A DNA stretch of 38,262 bases from Vibrio tasmaniensis 1F-187 (GTDB lineage Bacteria; Pseudomonadota; Gammaproteobacteria; Enterobacterales; Vibrionaceae). A program made the position numbers and the translations under genes. The DNA lies in contig NZ_AJZM02000309.1 in the NCBI RefSeq assembly GCF_000272405.2, forward strand, positions 1-38,262. Direction: 5' to 3'. Within the stretch, counting starts at the first letter, position 1, and every line of letters starts with the position of its first letter. Below the pieces are notes generated by a model. That model did no database searches, was not told where the DNA came from, and saw nothing but the letters and a program-made list of their open reading frames with translations. Shown here one piece after another: positions 5,109 through 34,476 of the stretch.

Positions 5109-6374
5109 TTACTTGTTCTTAACGGCTTTCTTTTTCTTAGCGATTTTCTTTTTCTTAGCAATTTTTTGCTTCGCGACCGCTTTCTTGTCTTCTTTCTTCG
5201 GTTTTTTCTTCTTTGTTACCGCGGCTTTCTTATGCGTTGGGCGCATGCCTTCGATGAAGCGCTCTTTGATCGCATCTTCAGTGTAACGAGCCACACGTTC
5301 AATCATTAGTTGATCGTGCGCTTCAATGATAGAAACCGCGTTACCTTTCTTACCTGCACGAGCCGTACGGCCGATGCGGTGTAGGTATACATCTGCTGTA
5401 CGCGGCATGTCGTAGTTAATAACGTGGCTTACATCTGGAAGGTCGATACCACGAGCTGCGACGTCAGTTGCCAGCAGTACGTTGATAGAACCATCGCGGA
5501 AACGAGAAATCGCGTTGTTACGACGATCTTGAGGCATTTCACCTTGGATCCATACACACGGGATCTGTGCACTTTCTAATTGAGCTCGTAGGTCACCTAG
5601 GCGGTCACGAGTCTTCAAGAAGATGATGCTGCGTTCAGCTTGCTCTGTGATGATATGTTTTAGGATATCAAGCTTGTGCTTAGCTGAATCGGCACGGTGA
5701 TACCATTGAGTGATCTTCTTACGTTCACGCAATGACGATTTTGCATCGATCTCTGCTGGGTTTTTCAGAAGGTCTTCAGTGAAACCTTCAATACCTTTAC
5801 CTTCTAGCGTTGCTGAGAAAAGTAAAGTTTGTTTACGCCAGCGACACTCTGCAGACAGACGGTCAACAACAGGACCAAAGCCCATGTCTAGCATACGGTC
5901 AGCTTCATCGAGAACCAGCCATTCAATCGCACGGCAGTCAAAACGCTCGCCTTCAATATATTCCATCAGACGACCAGGTGTTGCGACTACGATATCTTGA
6001 GTCGTGCTTAAGATATCTGCGTGCTCTTGGTACATCACACCGCCCGTGATCGTAAAGATATTTAGGCTGGTGTATTTAGCAAGCTCACGTGCTTGTTCGG
6101 TGATCTGCATTGCTAGCTCACGCGTTGGCGTCAGGATAAGCATACGTGCAGGGCCAGATTTCTTACGTGGGAAATCCAGTAGGTATTGCAGTGCTGGCAA
6201 TACAAATGATGCTGTTTTACCAGTACCTGTTGGCGCAGAAGCCAAAACGTCTCTTCCATCTAACGCTTGTGGGATTGCTTCAGCTTGTATCTGTGTTGGG
6301 CGTTCGTAGCCCATTTCGTCAATTGCTTTAAGCAGCTCTTGGTTTAGATCGAGTTCTGCAAAGGTTCTGATCAC
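5109..6374 (-). CDS. srmB: DEAD-box ATP-dependent RNA helicase SrmB
   Basis: An RNA helicase of the SrmB group, which in E. coli acts early in assembly of the 50S ribosomal subunit. Motifs in order: Q motif near residue 28, Walker A APTGTGKT (47-54), PTRELA (83-88), TPGR (132-135), DEAD (156-159), SAT (187-189), and HRIGRTAR (331-338). The roughly 50-residue C-terminal tail is lysine-rich, with a near-duplicate IAKKKK unit, and probably binds RNA non-specifically. The adjacent trmN supports the SrmB call over other DEAD-box paralogues, because the two genes are neighbours in E. coli too (there divergent). Here both are on the minus strand, 107 bases apart. Confidence 0.93.
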   Translation of the reverse strand: MIRTFAELDLNQELLKAIDEMGYERPTQIQAEAIPQALDGRDVLASAPTGTGKTASFVLPALQYLLDFPRKKSGPARMLILTPTRELAMQITEQARELAKYTSLNIFTITGGVMYQEHADILSTTQDIVVATPGRLMEYIEGERFDCRAIEWLVLDEADRMLDMGFGPVVDRLSAECRWRKQTLLFSATLEGKGIEGFTEDLLKNPAEIDAKSSLRERKKITQWYHRADSAKHKLDILKHIITEQAERSIIFLKTRDRLGDLRAQLESAQIPCVWIQGEMPQDRRNNAISRFRDGSINVLLATDVAARGIDLPDVSHVINYDMPRTADVYLHRIGRTARAGKKGNAVSIIEAHDQLMIERVARYTEDAIKERFIEGMRPTHKKAAVTKKKKPKKEDKKAVAKQKIAKKKKIAKKKKAVKNK

Positions 6375-19236: not shown

Positions 19237-19902
19237 CTATGCGTAATGGGTTGTCAGCAATCTGTGGGTGAATTGAGTTCGTAGATAGAAACCACGAGGT
19301 TTGGTCTTTATTGGTTTTCCACTTGCACCGTAAGCTTCTGTTAACACTCGACTGTTGGCGGCTTTTGGTCGCAAATGCAGTGCTTCGCCGTGTCTTGCTG
19401 TTATCTGTTCAACATTACCTAACACGATCAGCTCCATGAGCTCTTCCCAATCCCTTTTTAAGATCTCGTCTTCCGCTTGGGTTGGTGTCCACAATAAAGG
19501 GGATCCTACATGCCTTTCTGCCAGTGGGATCTCTCTTTCTCCCTCTACCGGGATCCACAACACTTTAGACAGCTTGTTTCGAACGTGACTGGTTTCCCAC
19601 GTTATGCCTTGCACGCCCATCAATGGCGCGACACAAACAAAGGTGGTTTCGAGTGGCTTCCCTGAATAACCAATCGGGATACTTTTTAGCTCGATCCCGA
19701 GCTTGGCAAAATCTTGTTCTGGTTTACTGCCAGCTGGCGCACCCAAGTGCCATTCCAATAGTTGTCCAACCCAGCCTTTATCTCGCTTTAGGTCGTTTGG
19801 TACAACCATATTGGCTTCATCGGCGAGCTCTTTGAAGGTCATTCCTGCAATAGCATATGCTCTGTCTAACAGCTCTTGTTGTGTTTGTGGTTCTGGTTTC
19901 AT
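19237..19902 (-). CDS. mutH: DNA mismatch repair endonuclease MutH
   Basis: Nicks the unmethylated strand at hemimethylated GATC sites when activated by MutS-MutL, giving strand discrimination after replication. The 221-residue protein retains the D-ExK nuclease triad: Asp64, Glu71 and Lys73 ([13 protein letters not shown]), six less than E. coli numbering, plus the conserved Glu50. The [23 protein letters not shown] and [15 protein letters not shown] blocks are typical. I start at ATG 19902 ([10 protein letters not shown]) by alignment length. In-frame ATGs at 19914 and 19950 exist, and none has a clear ribosome binding site. Its 5' end faces a DnaA-box cluster and rppH. Confidence 0.96.
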
Positions 19903-20004
19903 AATAAAAGGCATGATCAAAAAAATGATTTTACCAGAAGTTATCACCATATGACGACTGGTTAAGAAATGATCGCCTTGCTAGAAAAGGGATCAAACTC
20001 ATGG

Positions 20005-20482
20005 TTATCCACAGGACATGAAGGTAATTAATTGAAATATTAATTTAGTGGATAAATAAACAGGGGTTTGCAGGGGATAAAATGCTTGCTAAATAGGGTT
20101 TGAAATGAATCTTTCACTTACTAGTGTGGATAAACATCGGAGTGGTTGATCTTTGACCATGGGTGGTTTTTGAAAGATCTTTTTATTTTTTCATGTTTTT
20201 AAAATTGATGAATTTGTTTTAATTTACTGATTTTTAATTGTTTTTGTTGTCGGTGGGTTGTTTTTTGTTTTTGGTTCTGATAAATCTATGGATTAAAAAA
20301 AACGATTACGGGTAATTCTTCACATAGTTATTCACAGAAAAGGTGAATAAATGTGGTCTATGTCTCACTCTTGTGTGGGTAACTAAGATTTGAGCAAAAC
20401 TTATCCATATTCGTAGTTATTATTCATAAATATAGCGCTTGTCACGTCACTAAGTTTGCTCCGATTGGGGATATGTGGAAAA
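20005..20482. promoter_or_regulatory. DnaA-box cluster in the mutH-rppH gap, probable DARS2 counterpart
   Basis: About 615 non-coding bases separate mutH and rppH. They hold three boxes matching TTATNCACA exactly: TTATCCACA at 20005-20013, its reverse complement at 20125-20133, and TTATTCACA at 20328-20336. One-mismatch boxes lie at 20047-20055 (-), 20316-20324, 20342-20350 (-), 20374-20382 (-), 20401-20409, 20420-20428 and 20474-20482 (-). The middle (20175-20300) is very T-rich. In E. coli the mutH-rppH gap is DARS2, which converts ADP-DnaA to ATP-DnaA with help from IHF and Fis. I could not assign IHF or Fis sites by eye. Confidence 0.8.
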
Positions 20483-20518
20483 ATCAGTGTAATTAAAAAT
20501 TTAGATAGAGGTTGGCCA

Positions 20519-21037
20519 GTGATAGATGGCGATGGTTACCGATTAAATGTTGGTATTGTAATCTGTAACAACCATGGTCAGGTCTTCTGGGCTAAACGAT
20601 ACGGGCAACATTCATGGCAATTCCCTCAAGGGGGAATAGATGAAGGTGAAACTCCGGAACAGGCAATGTACCGCGAGTTGTATGAAGAGGTTGGCCTTAC
20701 TAAAAAGGATGTAAAGATCGTCGCGACAAGTCGTCATTGGTTACGCTATAAGCTGCCCAAACGACTGGTTCGGTGGGATTCTAAACCTGTCTGTATTGGA
20801 CAAAAACAGAAGTGGTTTCTTTTACGCTTAGATTGCGATGAATCGCATATCAATATGCAGCGTGGAAGCACACCTGAGTTTGATGGTTGGCGTTGGGTGA
20901 GTTACTGGTACCCAGTTCGACAAGTTGTATCTTTCAAGCGAGATGTTTACCGTCGAGCGATGAAAGAATTCGCATCTTTAGCAATGCCGTTTAAAGAGCG
21001 AAAAACAAAAGGAAAGCGCAAATTGCGTAGAGGTTAA
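20519..21037 (+). CDS. rppH: RNA pyrophosphohydrolase RppH (Nudix)
   Basis: Removes phosphates from 5'-triphosphate ends of RNA, starting RNase E-dependent mRNA decay. The 172-residue product carries the Nudix box from residue 38 ([23 protein letters not shown]), with metal-binding Glu53, Glu56 and Glu57, and the family-specific [15 protein letters not shown] and [11 protein letters not shown] blocks. The start is GTG 20519 ([14 protein letters not shown]), matching the E. coli N-terminus, with AGAGG seven bases upstream. The frame stays open further upstream, but that part is unconserved. The stop is two bases from the ptsP start, so the two genes are coupled. Confidence 0.96.
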
Positions 21038-21039
21038 GC

Positions 21040-23289
21040 ATGCTCAGCCAACTAAGGGAAATAGTTGAACACGTATCAAGAGTTGAAGATGTGTCGACGG
21101 CTCTTGATATTTTGGTTAAAGAGACATGCAGCGCGATGCAGACAGAATGTTGCACCGTGTATTTGGCAAATAATGATATGCAGCGTCTTGAGTTGATGGC
21201 AACTCAAGGCCTGATCTTCAAAGGCAATAGTATTCACATTGGTTTTGACGAAGGTTTGGTTGGCCTTGTTAAAAGAAGTGCTGAACCGATCAACCTTGCA
21301 CAAGCGTCTGCTCACCCTGCTTATAAGTTTTTTCCCGAGCTTGGAGAAAAGGTTTATCACTCTTTTCTCGGCACTCCGATTATCTATCGCAAGCAAGTGC
21401 TTGGCGTATTGGTCATTCAACAGAAGTCCCCCCGTTTATTCAGTGAGATGGAAGAATCCTTCCTTGTTACACTCTCAGCACAACTTGCGGTTATTGTGGC
21501 GCATGCCCAAACTCAAGGCCATTGGCTGTTAGAGCAACAGAAGCTACCTGCGACCAAAGGTATTGCAGCTTCATCGGGTGTGGCGATTGGTGACTTATGG
21601 TGGGACAACACTCAGCCTGAACTCACCGATGTTTACCCTGCTTCGACGCTCAATGTTGAAAGGGAGCATGAGCTGTTGGCAGTCGCTGTCGAAAATGCTC
21701 TCAATGATTTTAAGCGAATGCGAAAGCGTTTAGACAGTGAAATCAATAAAGACGCGTTGGCGATCTTTGATCTGTTTACTCACTTACTCAACGATCCCAT
21801 GTTACGTAAGGATCTCAAGAGTCAAATTCAGAAAGGCGACAAAGCCGATTGGGCATTGAGACAGGTTGTTGAGAGTTACTCTAACCGTTTTGCTCGTATG
21901 TCAGATGTGTACCTTCGGGAGAGAGCGCAAGACGTCCGAGAGCTTGGTCAAAGACTGCTCTATTTCCTCCACAATTCTGAACATGAACTTCGCACGTTAG
22001 ATAAACCGATTATTTTGGTGGTTCGTGAGTTAACGGCCTCTGTATTAGCGTCTATTCCTAAAGAAAAACTATTAGCGGTTATTTCCTTGGAAGGGGCGGC
22101 GAACTCGCACGCAGCGATTTTATCTCGAGCTTTGGGTATTCCTTCTGTTATGGGAGTTAACCTTAATCTTTCGCAAGCTAATGGTAAGCAAGCGATTGTT
22201 GACGGGTATAGCGGCGAGATCTTTATTGAGCCGACTAAAAACCTGCTCAAAGAGTATCGGGGGCTAATTCTAGAAGAGAGTGAGCTCTCCTCTATGGTCA
22301 ATCGAGAACTGTACTTACCGGCAAAAACGAAAGACGACAAGCAAGTCGAGATTCTGCTTAATGCGGGTTTGAGTGCAGACACTAACATCGCTATCAACCA
22401 AGGGGTTGATGGGGTTGGTCTGTATCGAACCGAAATTTCTTTCTTGTTACAACAAAGGTTTCCGTCAGAGGACGAACAATTCAAGCAGTATCGTTCTGTG
22501 CTCGCTAGTTACCCTGAGAAGCAAGTGGTGATGCGAACCTTGGATATTGGTGGAGATAAGGCGTTACCTTATTTCCCAATAGAAGAAGACAATCCATTCC
22601 TTGGTTGGCGTGGTATTCGTTTTACGCTCGATCATCCTGACATCTTTATTATTCAGTTACGTGCCATGTTACGTGCGAGTTGTGATAGCCAGAACTTGAG
22701 TATCTTGTTGCCGATGATCTCTAGCACTCAAGAACTGGATGATACTGTTCAACTCATCGAGCAAGCCTACGATGAAGTGCATGAACTCGACAGTCGAGTT
22801 CGCATGCCGCGTATCGGTATCATGATTGAAGTGCCATCCATGCTTTACATACTGCCGTTGATAGCGGATAAGGTCGACTTCGTTTCAGTCGGTACCAACG
22901 ATTTAACCCAATATTTATTGGCGGTTGACCGGAACAATTCCCGTGTCTCTGATGTCTATGAATCCATGCACCCTGCAGTGATCATGGCATTGAAACACAT
23001 CCATGATACTTGTAAGCAATATCAATTGCCGGTGTGTATATGTGGAGAGCTCGCGGGTGATCCAATGGGTGCATTGCTCTTGATTGGGTTAGGGTATGAG
23101 ACGTTAAGTATGAACACCTCAAATGTCGCAAGGACTAAGTATTTGATTCGTCAATCTAAGCTTAGTGAACTGCAAGATTTGGCAAATGAGGCGCTATCAA
23201 AACCGTATGGAAGTGACATCTATAGTATGATGCTCAACTATTTCGAAGAGCGTGAATTTACAGGCTTCATTCGAGCGGGTAAAAAATAG
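21040..23289 (+). CDS. ptsP: PEP-protein phosphotransferase of the nitrogen PTS (EI-Ntr)
   Basis: The first enzyme of the regulatory nitrogen phosphotransferase system: it takes phosphate from phosphoenolpyruvate and passes it to NPr, then to EIIA-Ntr. The 749-residue protein has an N-terminal GAF sensor domain (about 15-155), which in E. coli responds to glutamine and 2-oxoglutarate. The PTS enzyme I region follows (from about 170), with phospho-histidine His357 in EGAANSHAAILSRALGIPSV and the PEP-binding TIM barrel (VGLYRTEISFL, RTLDIGGDKALPYF, SVGTNDLTQYLLAVDR, CGELAGDP). It lies in an rppH-ptsP unit, as in E. coli. Confidence 0.97.
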   Translation: MLSQLREIVEHVSRVEDVSTALDILVKETCSAMQTECCTVYLANNDMQRLELMATQGLIFKGNSIHIGFDEGLVGLVKRSAEPINLAQASAHPAYKFFPELGEKVYHSFLGTPIIYRKQVLGVLVIQQKSPRLFSEMEESFLVTLSAQLAVIVAHAQTQGHWLLEQQKLPATKGIAASSGVAIGDLWWDNTQPELTDVYPASTLNVEREHELLAVAVENALNDFKRMRKRLDSEINKDALAIFDLFTHLLNDPMLRKDLKSQIQKGDKADWALRQVVESYSNRFARMSDVYLRERAQDVRELGQRLLYFLHNSEHELRTLDKPIILVVRELTASVLASIPKEKLLAVISLEGAANSHAAILSRALGIPSVMGVNLNLSQANGKQAIVDGYSGEIFIEPTKNLLKEYRGLILEESELSSMVNRELYLPAKTKDDKQVEILLNAGLSADTNIAINQGVDGVGLYRTEISFLLQQRFPSEDEQFKQYRSVLASYPEKQVVMRTLDIGGDKALPYFPIEEDNPFLGWRGIRFTLDHPDIFIIQLRAMLRASCDSQNLSILLPMISSTQELDDTVQLIEQAYDEVHELDSRVRMPRIGIMIEVPSMLYILPLIADKVDFVSVGTNDLTQYLLAVDRNNSRVSDVYESMHPAVIMALKHIHDTCKQYQLPVCICGELAGDPMGALLLIGLGYETLSMNTSNVARTKYLIRQSKLSELQDLANEALSKPYGSDIYSMMLNYFEEREFTGFIRAGKK

Positions 23290-33540: not shown

Positions 33541-34476
33541 ATGGAACTGATCCGAGGTATACACAATATTAAAGCACAGCATCATGGCTGTGTATTAACC
33601 ATAGGTAACTTCGATGGTGTTCATTTAGGGCATCAAGAGGTTCTGAGTCAGGTTTCTAAACAAGCTACAGCTCTGGGACTCCCTTCTGTTGTCATGACGT
33701 TTGAACCGCAACCTATGGAGTTGTTTGCTAAAGGTCGAGCGCCAGCGCGTTTAACTCGCTTACGAGATAAGTACGTGCAATTGAGCAAGCTAGAGATTAG
33801 TCGTTTATTGTGTGTGAATTTCAATCAGTATTTTGCAAGCTTGTCTGCGGAAGCGTTCATTAAGGATCTTTTGGTTGATAAGCTTGGTGTGAAATTCTTG
33901 GTGGTTGGTGACGACTTTTGCTTTGGCAAAGGCCGAACAGGTAATTTCGCTATGCTTAAAGAAGCGGGCGAAAAATATGGTTTTGAGGTGGTGAGCACCC
34001 AAAGCTATTGCTTAAACCAATTACGAGTAAGCAGCACTGAGATACGAAATGCGTTAGCGGCCAATGACTTGGCTTCTAGTGCTACCATGCTTGGGCGTGA
34101 CTACAGTATCAGTGGTCGTGTTTCTCATGGTCGTAAACTAGGGAGAACTATCGGTTTCCCTACCGCTAATATTCCATTAAAACGTTGTGTTTCTCCTGTG
34201 TCGGGAGTGTATGTTGTTGAAGCATTAGATATCGACGGTGTTCCTGTTGGTGGTGTTGCTAATATTGGACAACGACCAACAGTTAATGGTGTAAGGCAGC
34301 AATTAGAAGTACATTTTTTTGACTTTAAAGCCAATTTATATGGTAAACAGTTAGAAGTACGACTTTTGCACAAACTGCGCGACGAGATAAAATTTGAATC
34401 GTTCGACGCACTAAAGAATCAAATAGAATTGGATGCTGAAGCCGCAAGGGTGTGGCTGCTTCAGCTAAAGAATTAG
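33541..34476 (+). CDS. ribF: Bifunctional riboflavin kinase / FAD synthetase
   Basis: Converts riboflavin to FMN and FMN to FAD. The 311-residue protein has an N-terminal nucleotidyltransferase domain (about 1-180), with the adenylyl-transferase signature GNFDGVHLGHQEVL near residue 22 and the SSTEIRNAL motif around 160. The C-terminal riboflavin kinase domain (about 185-310) has GRTIGFPTANI, with its conserved PTAN, and the GVYVV, GVANIGQRPT and EVHFFDF strands. The ileS gene begins 63 bases later, so the two probably share a transcript as in E. coli. Confidence 0.97.
   Translation: MELIRGIHNIKAQHHGCVLTIGNFDGVHLGHQEVLSQVSKQATALGLPSVVMTFEPQPMELFAKGRAPARLTRLRDKYVQLSKLEISRLLCVNFNQYFASLSAEAFIKDLLVDKLGVKFLVVGDDFCFGKGRTGNFAMLKEAGEKYGFEVVSTQSYCLNQLRVSSTEIRNALAANDLASSATMLGRDYSISGRVSHGRKLGRTIGFPTANIPLKRCVSPVSGVYVVEALDIDGVPVGGVANIGQRPTVNGVRQQLEVHFFDFKANLYGKQLEVRLLHKLRDEIKFESFDALKNQIELDAEAARVWLLQLKN

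Follow-up and report, generated by a model that had tools for sequence, protein, structure and literature searches.

A probable Vibrio counterpart of DARS2 in the mutH–rppH gap, and a possible third DARS-type site on chromosome 2

Introduction

The closest described system is the replication-control locus DARS2 of Escherichia coli. In the accessible text of two reports (PMC8682772, PMC4245941), a head-to-head pair of ADP-DnaA molecules sits on its facing boxes I and II and loses ADP; the locus requires Fis at FBS2-3 and IHF at IBS1-2, and ATP-DnaA on box V and the weak boxes displaces Fis. A second E. coli locus, DARS1 (uvrB region), has the same core geometry (a box, 3 bp, a box, 5 bp and an inverted box) at a different place, and works without IHF and Fis according to the accessible part of PMC4585315.

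V. cholerae is listed among the species with conserved DARS2 (core, Fis block and boxes) in the figure 8 legend of PMC8682772, and DARS-like sequences in V. cholerae are cited in the accessible portion of PMC6090056. Since V. cholerae DARS2 is in print (PMC8682772, as far as its accessible text goes), DARS2 in Vibrio is already known and the locus described here is another case, of the same element in the same genus, likened to that of V. cholerae by published description. Here, we analyse the gap between mutH and rppH in a 38,262-nucleotide contig of Vibrio tasmaniensis 1F-187 (hereafter, the window), which an earlier note had proposed as a Vibrio counterpart of DARS2.

Results and discussion

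Extent and DnaA box content of the gap

The flanking genes, assigned by profile matches (Table 1), together with E. coli records place the locus in the same gene gap as E. coli DARS2, mutH–rppH(ygdP), as the earlier note had said. Of the limits given there (19951..20518), the right end stands, with the rppH start codon read by us as the GTG at 20519; the left end is shifted, the mutH start codon being more likely at 19902-19900 than at 19950, and the gap runs from about 19903 to 20518. The described box content was fully recovered: three exact TTATNCACA boxes in mixed orientation (20005-20013, +; 20125-20133, -; 20328-20336, +) and seven one-mismatch boxes (20047, -; 20316, +; 20342, -; 20374, -; 20401, +; 20420, +; 20474, -), in a stretch that is indeed A+T-rich (68%).

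Dinucleotide shuffling of 19903-20518 gave means of 0.06 for exact boxes (three observed) and 1.16 when up to one mismatch is allowed (ten observed). A scan of the 38-kb window in 489 sliding stretches of 616 bp puts those over the gap first, and other A+T-rich DNA is not as dense: among the 30 stretches with A+T of at least 0.62, those outside the gap hold no exact box. In the whole genome (5.33 Mb) the exact box occurs at 146 places, against 144 for a reversed control, and is therefore not enriched, so that the cluster is local to the gap. The composition of the gap is what would favour chance as the source of the boxes, but neither count was reached in any of 1000 shuffles, and the core is conserved base by base in 117 of 118 genomes of the genus; an origin in chance or A+T content is refuted by these two results, and we regard it as scarcely conceivable. 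An Rfam RNA was also ruled out, with none at the gathering threshold in 19237-21040.

Table 1. Features of the mutH–rppH region of the window, and two related cores elsewhere in the genome
Feature	Position	Strand	Basis or remark
mutH (left flank)	19237..19902	-	NF003458, 375.7 bits (cut-off 243); start codon is our choice
mutH–rppH gap, probable DARS2 counterpart	19903..20518	.	Aligns collinearly with the MG1655 gap
Distal exact DnaA box, TTATCCACA(G)	20005..20014	+	Pairs with an E. coli box in the alignment
Exact DnaA box, putative counterpart of E. coli DARS2 box V	20125..20133	-	Named from the accessible text of PMC8682772 and from position
Predicted Fis-site block, FBS2-3 counterpart (GGTTGATCTTTGACC)	20143..20158	.	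Sequence likeness to MG1655
Possible IHF site	20220..20232	-	One mismatch to consensus; weak, region A+T-rich
DARS core	20316..20350	+	Boxes 20316-20324 (+), 20328-20336 (+), 20342-20350 (-)
One-mismatch boxes, rppH side	20374..20428		20374 (-), 20401 (+), 20420 (+); partly conserved among Vibrio
TTTTCCACA box, presumed rppH promoter region	20474..20482	-	Sequence match
rppH (right flank)	20519..21037	+	NF001934, 338.8 bits (cut-off 241)
DARS1 counterpart	C66:145-179 (L145:145-179), outside the window		About 350 bp before uvrB
Third DARS-like core	C434:5329-5363 (L146:1501-1535), outside the window		Flanked by ybbP and by a gene weakly matching FAD oxidoreductases

Comparison with E. coli DARS2

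The earlier note had found little obvious sequence identity to E. coli DARS2 beyond the boxes; this does not hold, as blastn by itself gives a match and a collinear alignment reveals a conserved core and Fis block. Searched with blastn against 5426 E. coli genomes, the gap gave a weak 50-bp match (82%, E = 0.2); 5373 of the genomes contain it, at 5374 places in all, and in the one record opened it falls in the mutH–rppH gap. In the alignment with the MG1655 gap, the 20005 box, the block 20125-20158 and the core 20316-20350 are paired in order. The core, TTCTTCACA-3-TTATTCACA-5-inverted TTATTCACC with two boxes facing, is identical to that of MG1655 at 30 of 35 positions and has the same 3-bp/5-bp spacing and orientation, and the box V/Fis block 20125-20158 (a predicted Fis site) is identical at 27 of 34. 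In MG1655, by our reading of its gap, this core is flanked by the primers that the accessible part of PMC4585315 gives for deleting 'DnaA box I-III'.

The gap thus agrees with E. coli DARS2 in gene location, in the order of its parts, in the geometry of the core and in having the box V/Fis block, and its relative distance from the origin is similar. The differences are that the middle core box is a perfect TTATTCACA in the gap and CTATCCACA in E. coli; that the gap has an exact box near rppH, which MG1655 is without; and that the E. coli IHF sites have no clear match in the Vibrio gap. The spacing between block and core is also longer in Vibrio (190-195 bp, against 184-185 bp in nine E. coli-side loci) by about 6 bp, or about half a helical turn; E. 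coli DARS2 is described, in the accessible text of PMC4245941, as sensitive to 5-bp shifts of its IHF site.

Conservation of the core and its surroundings

rppH was found in all 118 genomes of the genus, and the core pattern (at most three mismatches) occurs once each in 110 of these, with no control matches. In six of the eight genomes missed by the pattern, a core with 4-6 mismatches occupies the same place, and a seventh (G058) has it with 8 ungapped mismatches, resembling a one-base indel, its rppH also being split. Altogether, 117 of the 118 genomes keep the core, which stands 198-212 bp upstream of rppH (110 loci scored, seven placed from coordinates), and its position is thus conserved in related Vibrio, as the note's proposal required. 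In the remaining genome, G026 (1.0 Mb), mutH and rppH are 128 bp apart and the core is absent (L067, G026:C2:108400-109900). This is a natural loss of DARS2 and, because G026 lives without the core, the latter is dispensable at least in a reduced genome.

Gaps were extracted from 111 of the 118 genomes, all eight pattern misses included, and in the alignment of 110 (one gap being short) conservation is highest at the distal box, the core and the Fis block and in a further block ahead of rppH. TTATCCACAG is present at the distal box in 97 of 109 Vibrio gaps, against 4 of 30 loci of other Vibrionaceae genera, and the box V/Fis block is found with at most three mismatches in 102 of 109 gaps and is not recognisable in the other 7. 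Comparison of the gaps for box spacing and for IHF and Fis sites, which the earlier note had suggested, therefore bore out the core, the spacing and the Fis block but not the IHF sites: counterparts of IBS1-2 between block and core are not clearly recognisable in the Vibrio gaps. In 52 of 109 gaps the best match to the IHF consensus is placed at -95 to -97 relative to the core, and an IHF-like site with at most one mismatch occurs in 85 of 109, both counts coming from an A+T-rich region and without a shuffled control.

This conservation bears on a reading of the gap as a mere sink that titrates DnaA. A cluster of exact boxes should bind DnaA, and titration has been argued for E. coli (PMC12371093, accessible text), but titration needs no fixed 3-bp/5-bp spacing, facing pair or Fis block at near-constant distance, and we consider this reading extremely unlikely.

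Beyond the genus, the core was found in 57 of 61 genomes of a family sample (46 of 50 from other genera) and, at no more than three mismatches, in 20 of 148 genomes of an order sample, 11 of the 20 being outside the family. Eight of these 11 are beside rppH by coordinates and the other three at least 2 kb away; the seven order-sample cores beside rppH that were examined lie 189-241 bp before the gene, with mutH beyond. Twenty further regions upstream of rppH from other families have looser cores or none.

The window also has a strongly conserved block before rppH (20449-20493), which holds an exact DnaA box in most Vibrio, and a TRTGRAAMAATC-like stretch stands at about the same place before rppH in other families (GTATGAAACAATC in E. 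coli). The block is possibly an rppH promoter element. The boxes might, then, chiefly regulate transcription, with DnaA near the rppH promoter controlling rppH (or mutH); in favour of this, 103 of 110 Vibrio gaps have an exact TTWTNCACA box some 45 bp upstream of rppH, within one of the best-conserved blocks. The core, however, is about 200 bp from rppH and has DARS geometry, and the TRTGRAAMAATC-like stretch of other families is often not a DnaA box, so that the box near rppH may be a promoter element which only reads as a box. A chiefly transcriptional role is accordingly very improbable, although it could coexist with a DARS role.

Position on chromosome 1 and proposed mechanism

Twenty genomes were used to place the locus, of which three were not placeable. 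In the 17 with dnaA within 18 kb of the start of the chromosome 1 contig, DARS2 lies at 0.161-0.215 of the contig from dnaA, and a DARS1-type core at 0.291-0.374; among the 20 DARS1-type cores, the uvrB neighbourhood was checked in two (G075, G107) and the rest were assigned by sequence likeness. The distances are similar to those of E. coli DARS2 and DARS1 from oriC (0.206 and 0.329, respectively, from what we take to be the E. coli oriC coordinate). The case for DARS2 is built on location, core geometry, Fis block, spacing, conservation and position relative to dnaA. Against it count the loss of the core in G026, the 7 gaps with no recognisable Fis block, the lack of clear IHF sites and the longer distance from block to core. 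On balance the gap is very probably the DARS2 locus of chromosome 1, as first proposed, with a mechanism assigned by homology with E. coli. DARS positions relative to oriC are conserved within E. coli, according to the accessible part of PMC4585315.

Every step of the mechanism outlined here for Vibrio is transferred from the E. coli papers. ADP-DnaA would bind the core boxes, the two facing boxes holding a head-to-head DnaA pair that loses ADP; the resulting apo-DnaA would leave the core and then take up ATP. DARS2 would be switched on by Fis bound at the block 20143-20158 together with IHF bound between this block and the core, and it may be switched off when ATP-DnaA fills box V and the weak boxes and displaces Fis. 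The parts that this mechanism uses in E. coli are all present at the window locus except clearly recognisable IBS1-2. With the DARS2 core, the Fis block and the relative origin distance common to E. coli and Vibrio, the ATP-DnaA cycle of E. coli should be a usable model for chromosome 1.

A third three-box site, on chromosome 2

Three places in this genome show the three-box geometry (at most three mismatches), namely DARS2, C66:145-179 and C434:5329-5363 (Table 1), and the control matched nowhere in it. All 118 genomes of the genus have at least one match, and the control matched once in each of two. The DARS1 counterpart lies between uvrB and rsxA in three relatives (L215, L217, L218); G026 keeps a core beside rsxA, and uvrB was not found in the 3 kb there (L339).

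This assembly being a draft, the C434 site is assigned to chromosome 2 from relatives. Two of its three boxes face each other with 5-bp spacing and the third is 3 bp away; in DARS1 and DARS2 this third box stands beside the better member of the facing pair, whereas here a poor third box (TTATCCCTA) stands beside the imperfect member. A pattern for the site (at most two mismatches) is found in 114 of 118 genomes of the genus with no control matches, and the patterns collecting these sites themselves fix many of the bases then seen as conserved; the four genomes without a match are G026, G073 and the incomplete G053 and G064. Among 84,980 species genomes, the exact degenerate pattern matched 88 stretches; every title names Vibrio, Vibrionales, Vibrionaceae or Candidatus Photodesmus, and three of the titles say chromosome 2. 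Within the family, most other genera have weaker matches, and genus g75 has none in 10 genomes. A plasmid-collection search for V. cholerae chromosome 2 yielded six Vibrio records, none named V. cholerae, and another search mostly matched a sugar dehydrogenase gene.

In this genome and 30 relatives, ybbP adjoins the site in 30 of 31 loci and the oxidoreductase gene in 28; at least one of the two does so in all 31, so that shared gene order may explain its position. Candidatus Photodesmus blepharus, a reduced symbiont, retains the site with 0 mismatches; its neighbours there are a DAHP synthase gene and rplT, with neither ybbP nor the oxidoreductase gene in the 8 kb examined. Since the site outlives its usual neighbours, it is unlikely to serve them as promoter or terminator, a role rejected also on the varying distance to both genes. 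In G026 a version with 3 mismatches lies near infC (L338), and RctB was not found in this genome. As for other candidates, no Rfam RNA was found in L145, L146 or L310, and no terminator was called in L146, the TTATCCAC arms being kept as sequence and not covarying.

The distance to rctB was taken in 61 genomes in which the site and RctB (PF11826) are on one large contig, treated as the whole circular chromosome 2 although some are drafts; G098 was left out, as were drafts such as G013, G058 and G078 that have both on a contig of unmeasured length. The site lies a median 0.471 of the contig from rctB (at least 0.40 in 46 of 61, below 0.40 in 15 and below 0.25 in 4), the 61 being related species and not independent points. 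It is thus too far from rctB to be ori2. In G098 the site and rctB are on a contig that also carries rppH, and in genus g70 two genomes have a second contig starting at rctB; their sites are weaker and lie at about 0.39 and 0.41 in one and about 0.39 in the other. What we take to be the matS motif occurs exactly 75 times in 57 of 88 named 8-kb loci of the chromosome 2 site, against 0 when reversed; it had no exact match in the window, in 61 loci of DARS2 or in 360 kb taken from the starts of chromosome 1 contigs, nor in 31 three-kb loci around the chromosome 2 site.

We infer DARS activity of this site from its sequence. Tentatively, Vibrio may have a third DARS-type site on chromosome 2, usually near the terminus; because the site is copied late, its doubling would raise ATP-DnaA, and the completion of chromosome 2 would feed back on the following round of initiation at the origin of chromosome 1. 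The known crtS checkpoint runs in the opposite direction. Counting against this reading, which we hold to be possible but doubtful, is the reported insensitivity of chromosome 1 to blocking of chromosome 2 replication (PMC5854411, accessible text). The 15 of 61 sites below 0.40, the shared gene order, the 31 three-kb loci free of matS, the missing or weaker matches in other genera of the family and the further facing pairs described below also count against it. No DARS on Vibrio chromosome 2 was found in the literature searched, which lay mostly outside subscription papers, and 'DARS3' in the DnaA sense appears in the accessible part of PMC4585315 only as a speculation for E. coli. The site is the novel lead of this analysis and bears on the coordination of the two origins more directly than DARS2. 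If it acts on DnaA, it would offer chromosome 2 a route to influence the initiator of chromosome 1, an influence that is directly testable by removing or moving the site.

Other facing pairs and weaker cores

At C152:34226-34248 (stretch 34214-34248) two perfect boxes face each other across 5 bp with no third box beside them, with likenesses in G046 and G009, and a further geometry match, GTATCACCAnnGTTATCCACAGAnTCTGTGGATAA, occurs in G002:C93, G029:C4, G045:C1, G048:C34, G069:C1, G082:C6 and G090:C5. A facing pair alone is therefore not unique to the three sites. Weaker DARS-like cores stand beside other genes in other Vibrionaceae genera (L352-L358, L360, L362-L370, L378 and L379), several of them on the second contig of two-chromosome assemblies.
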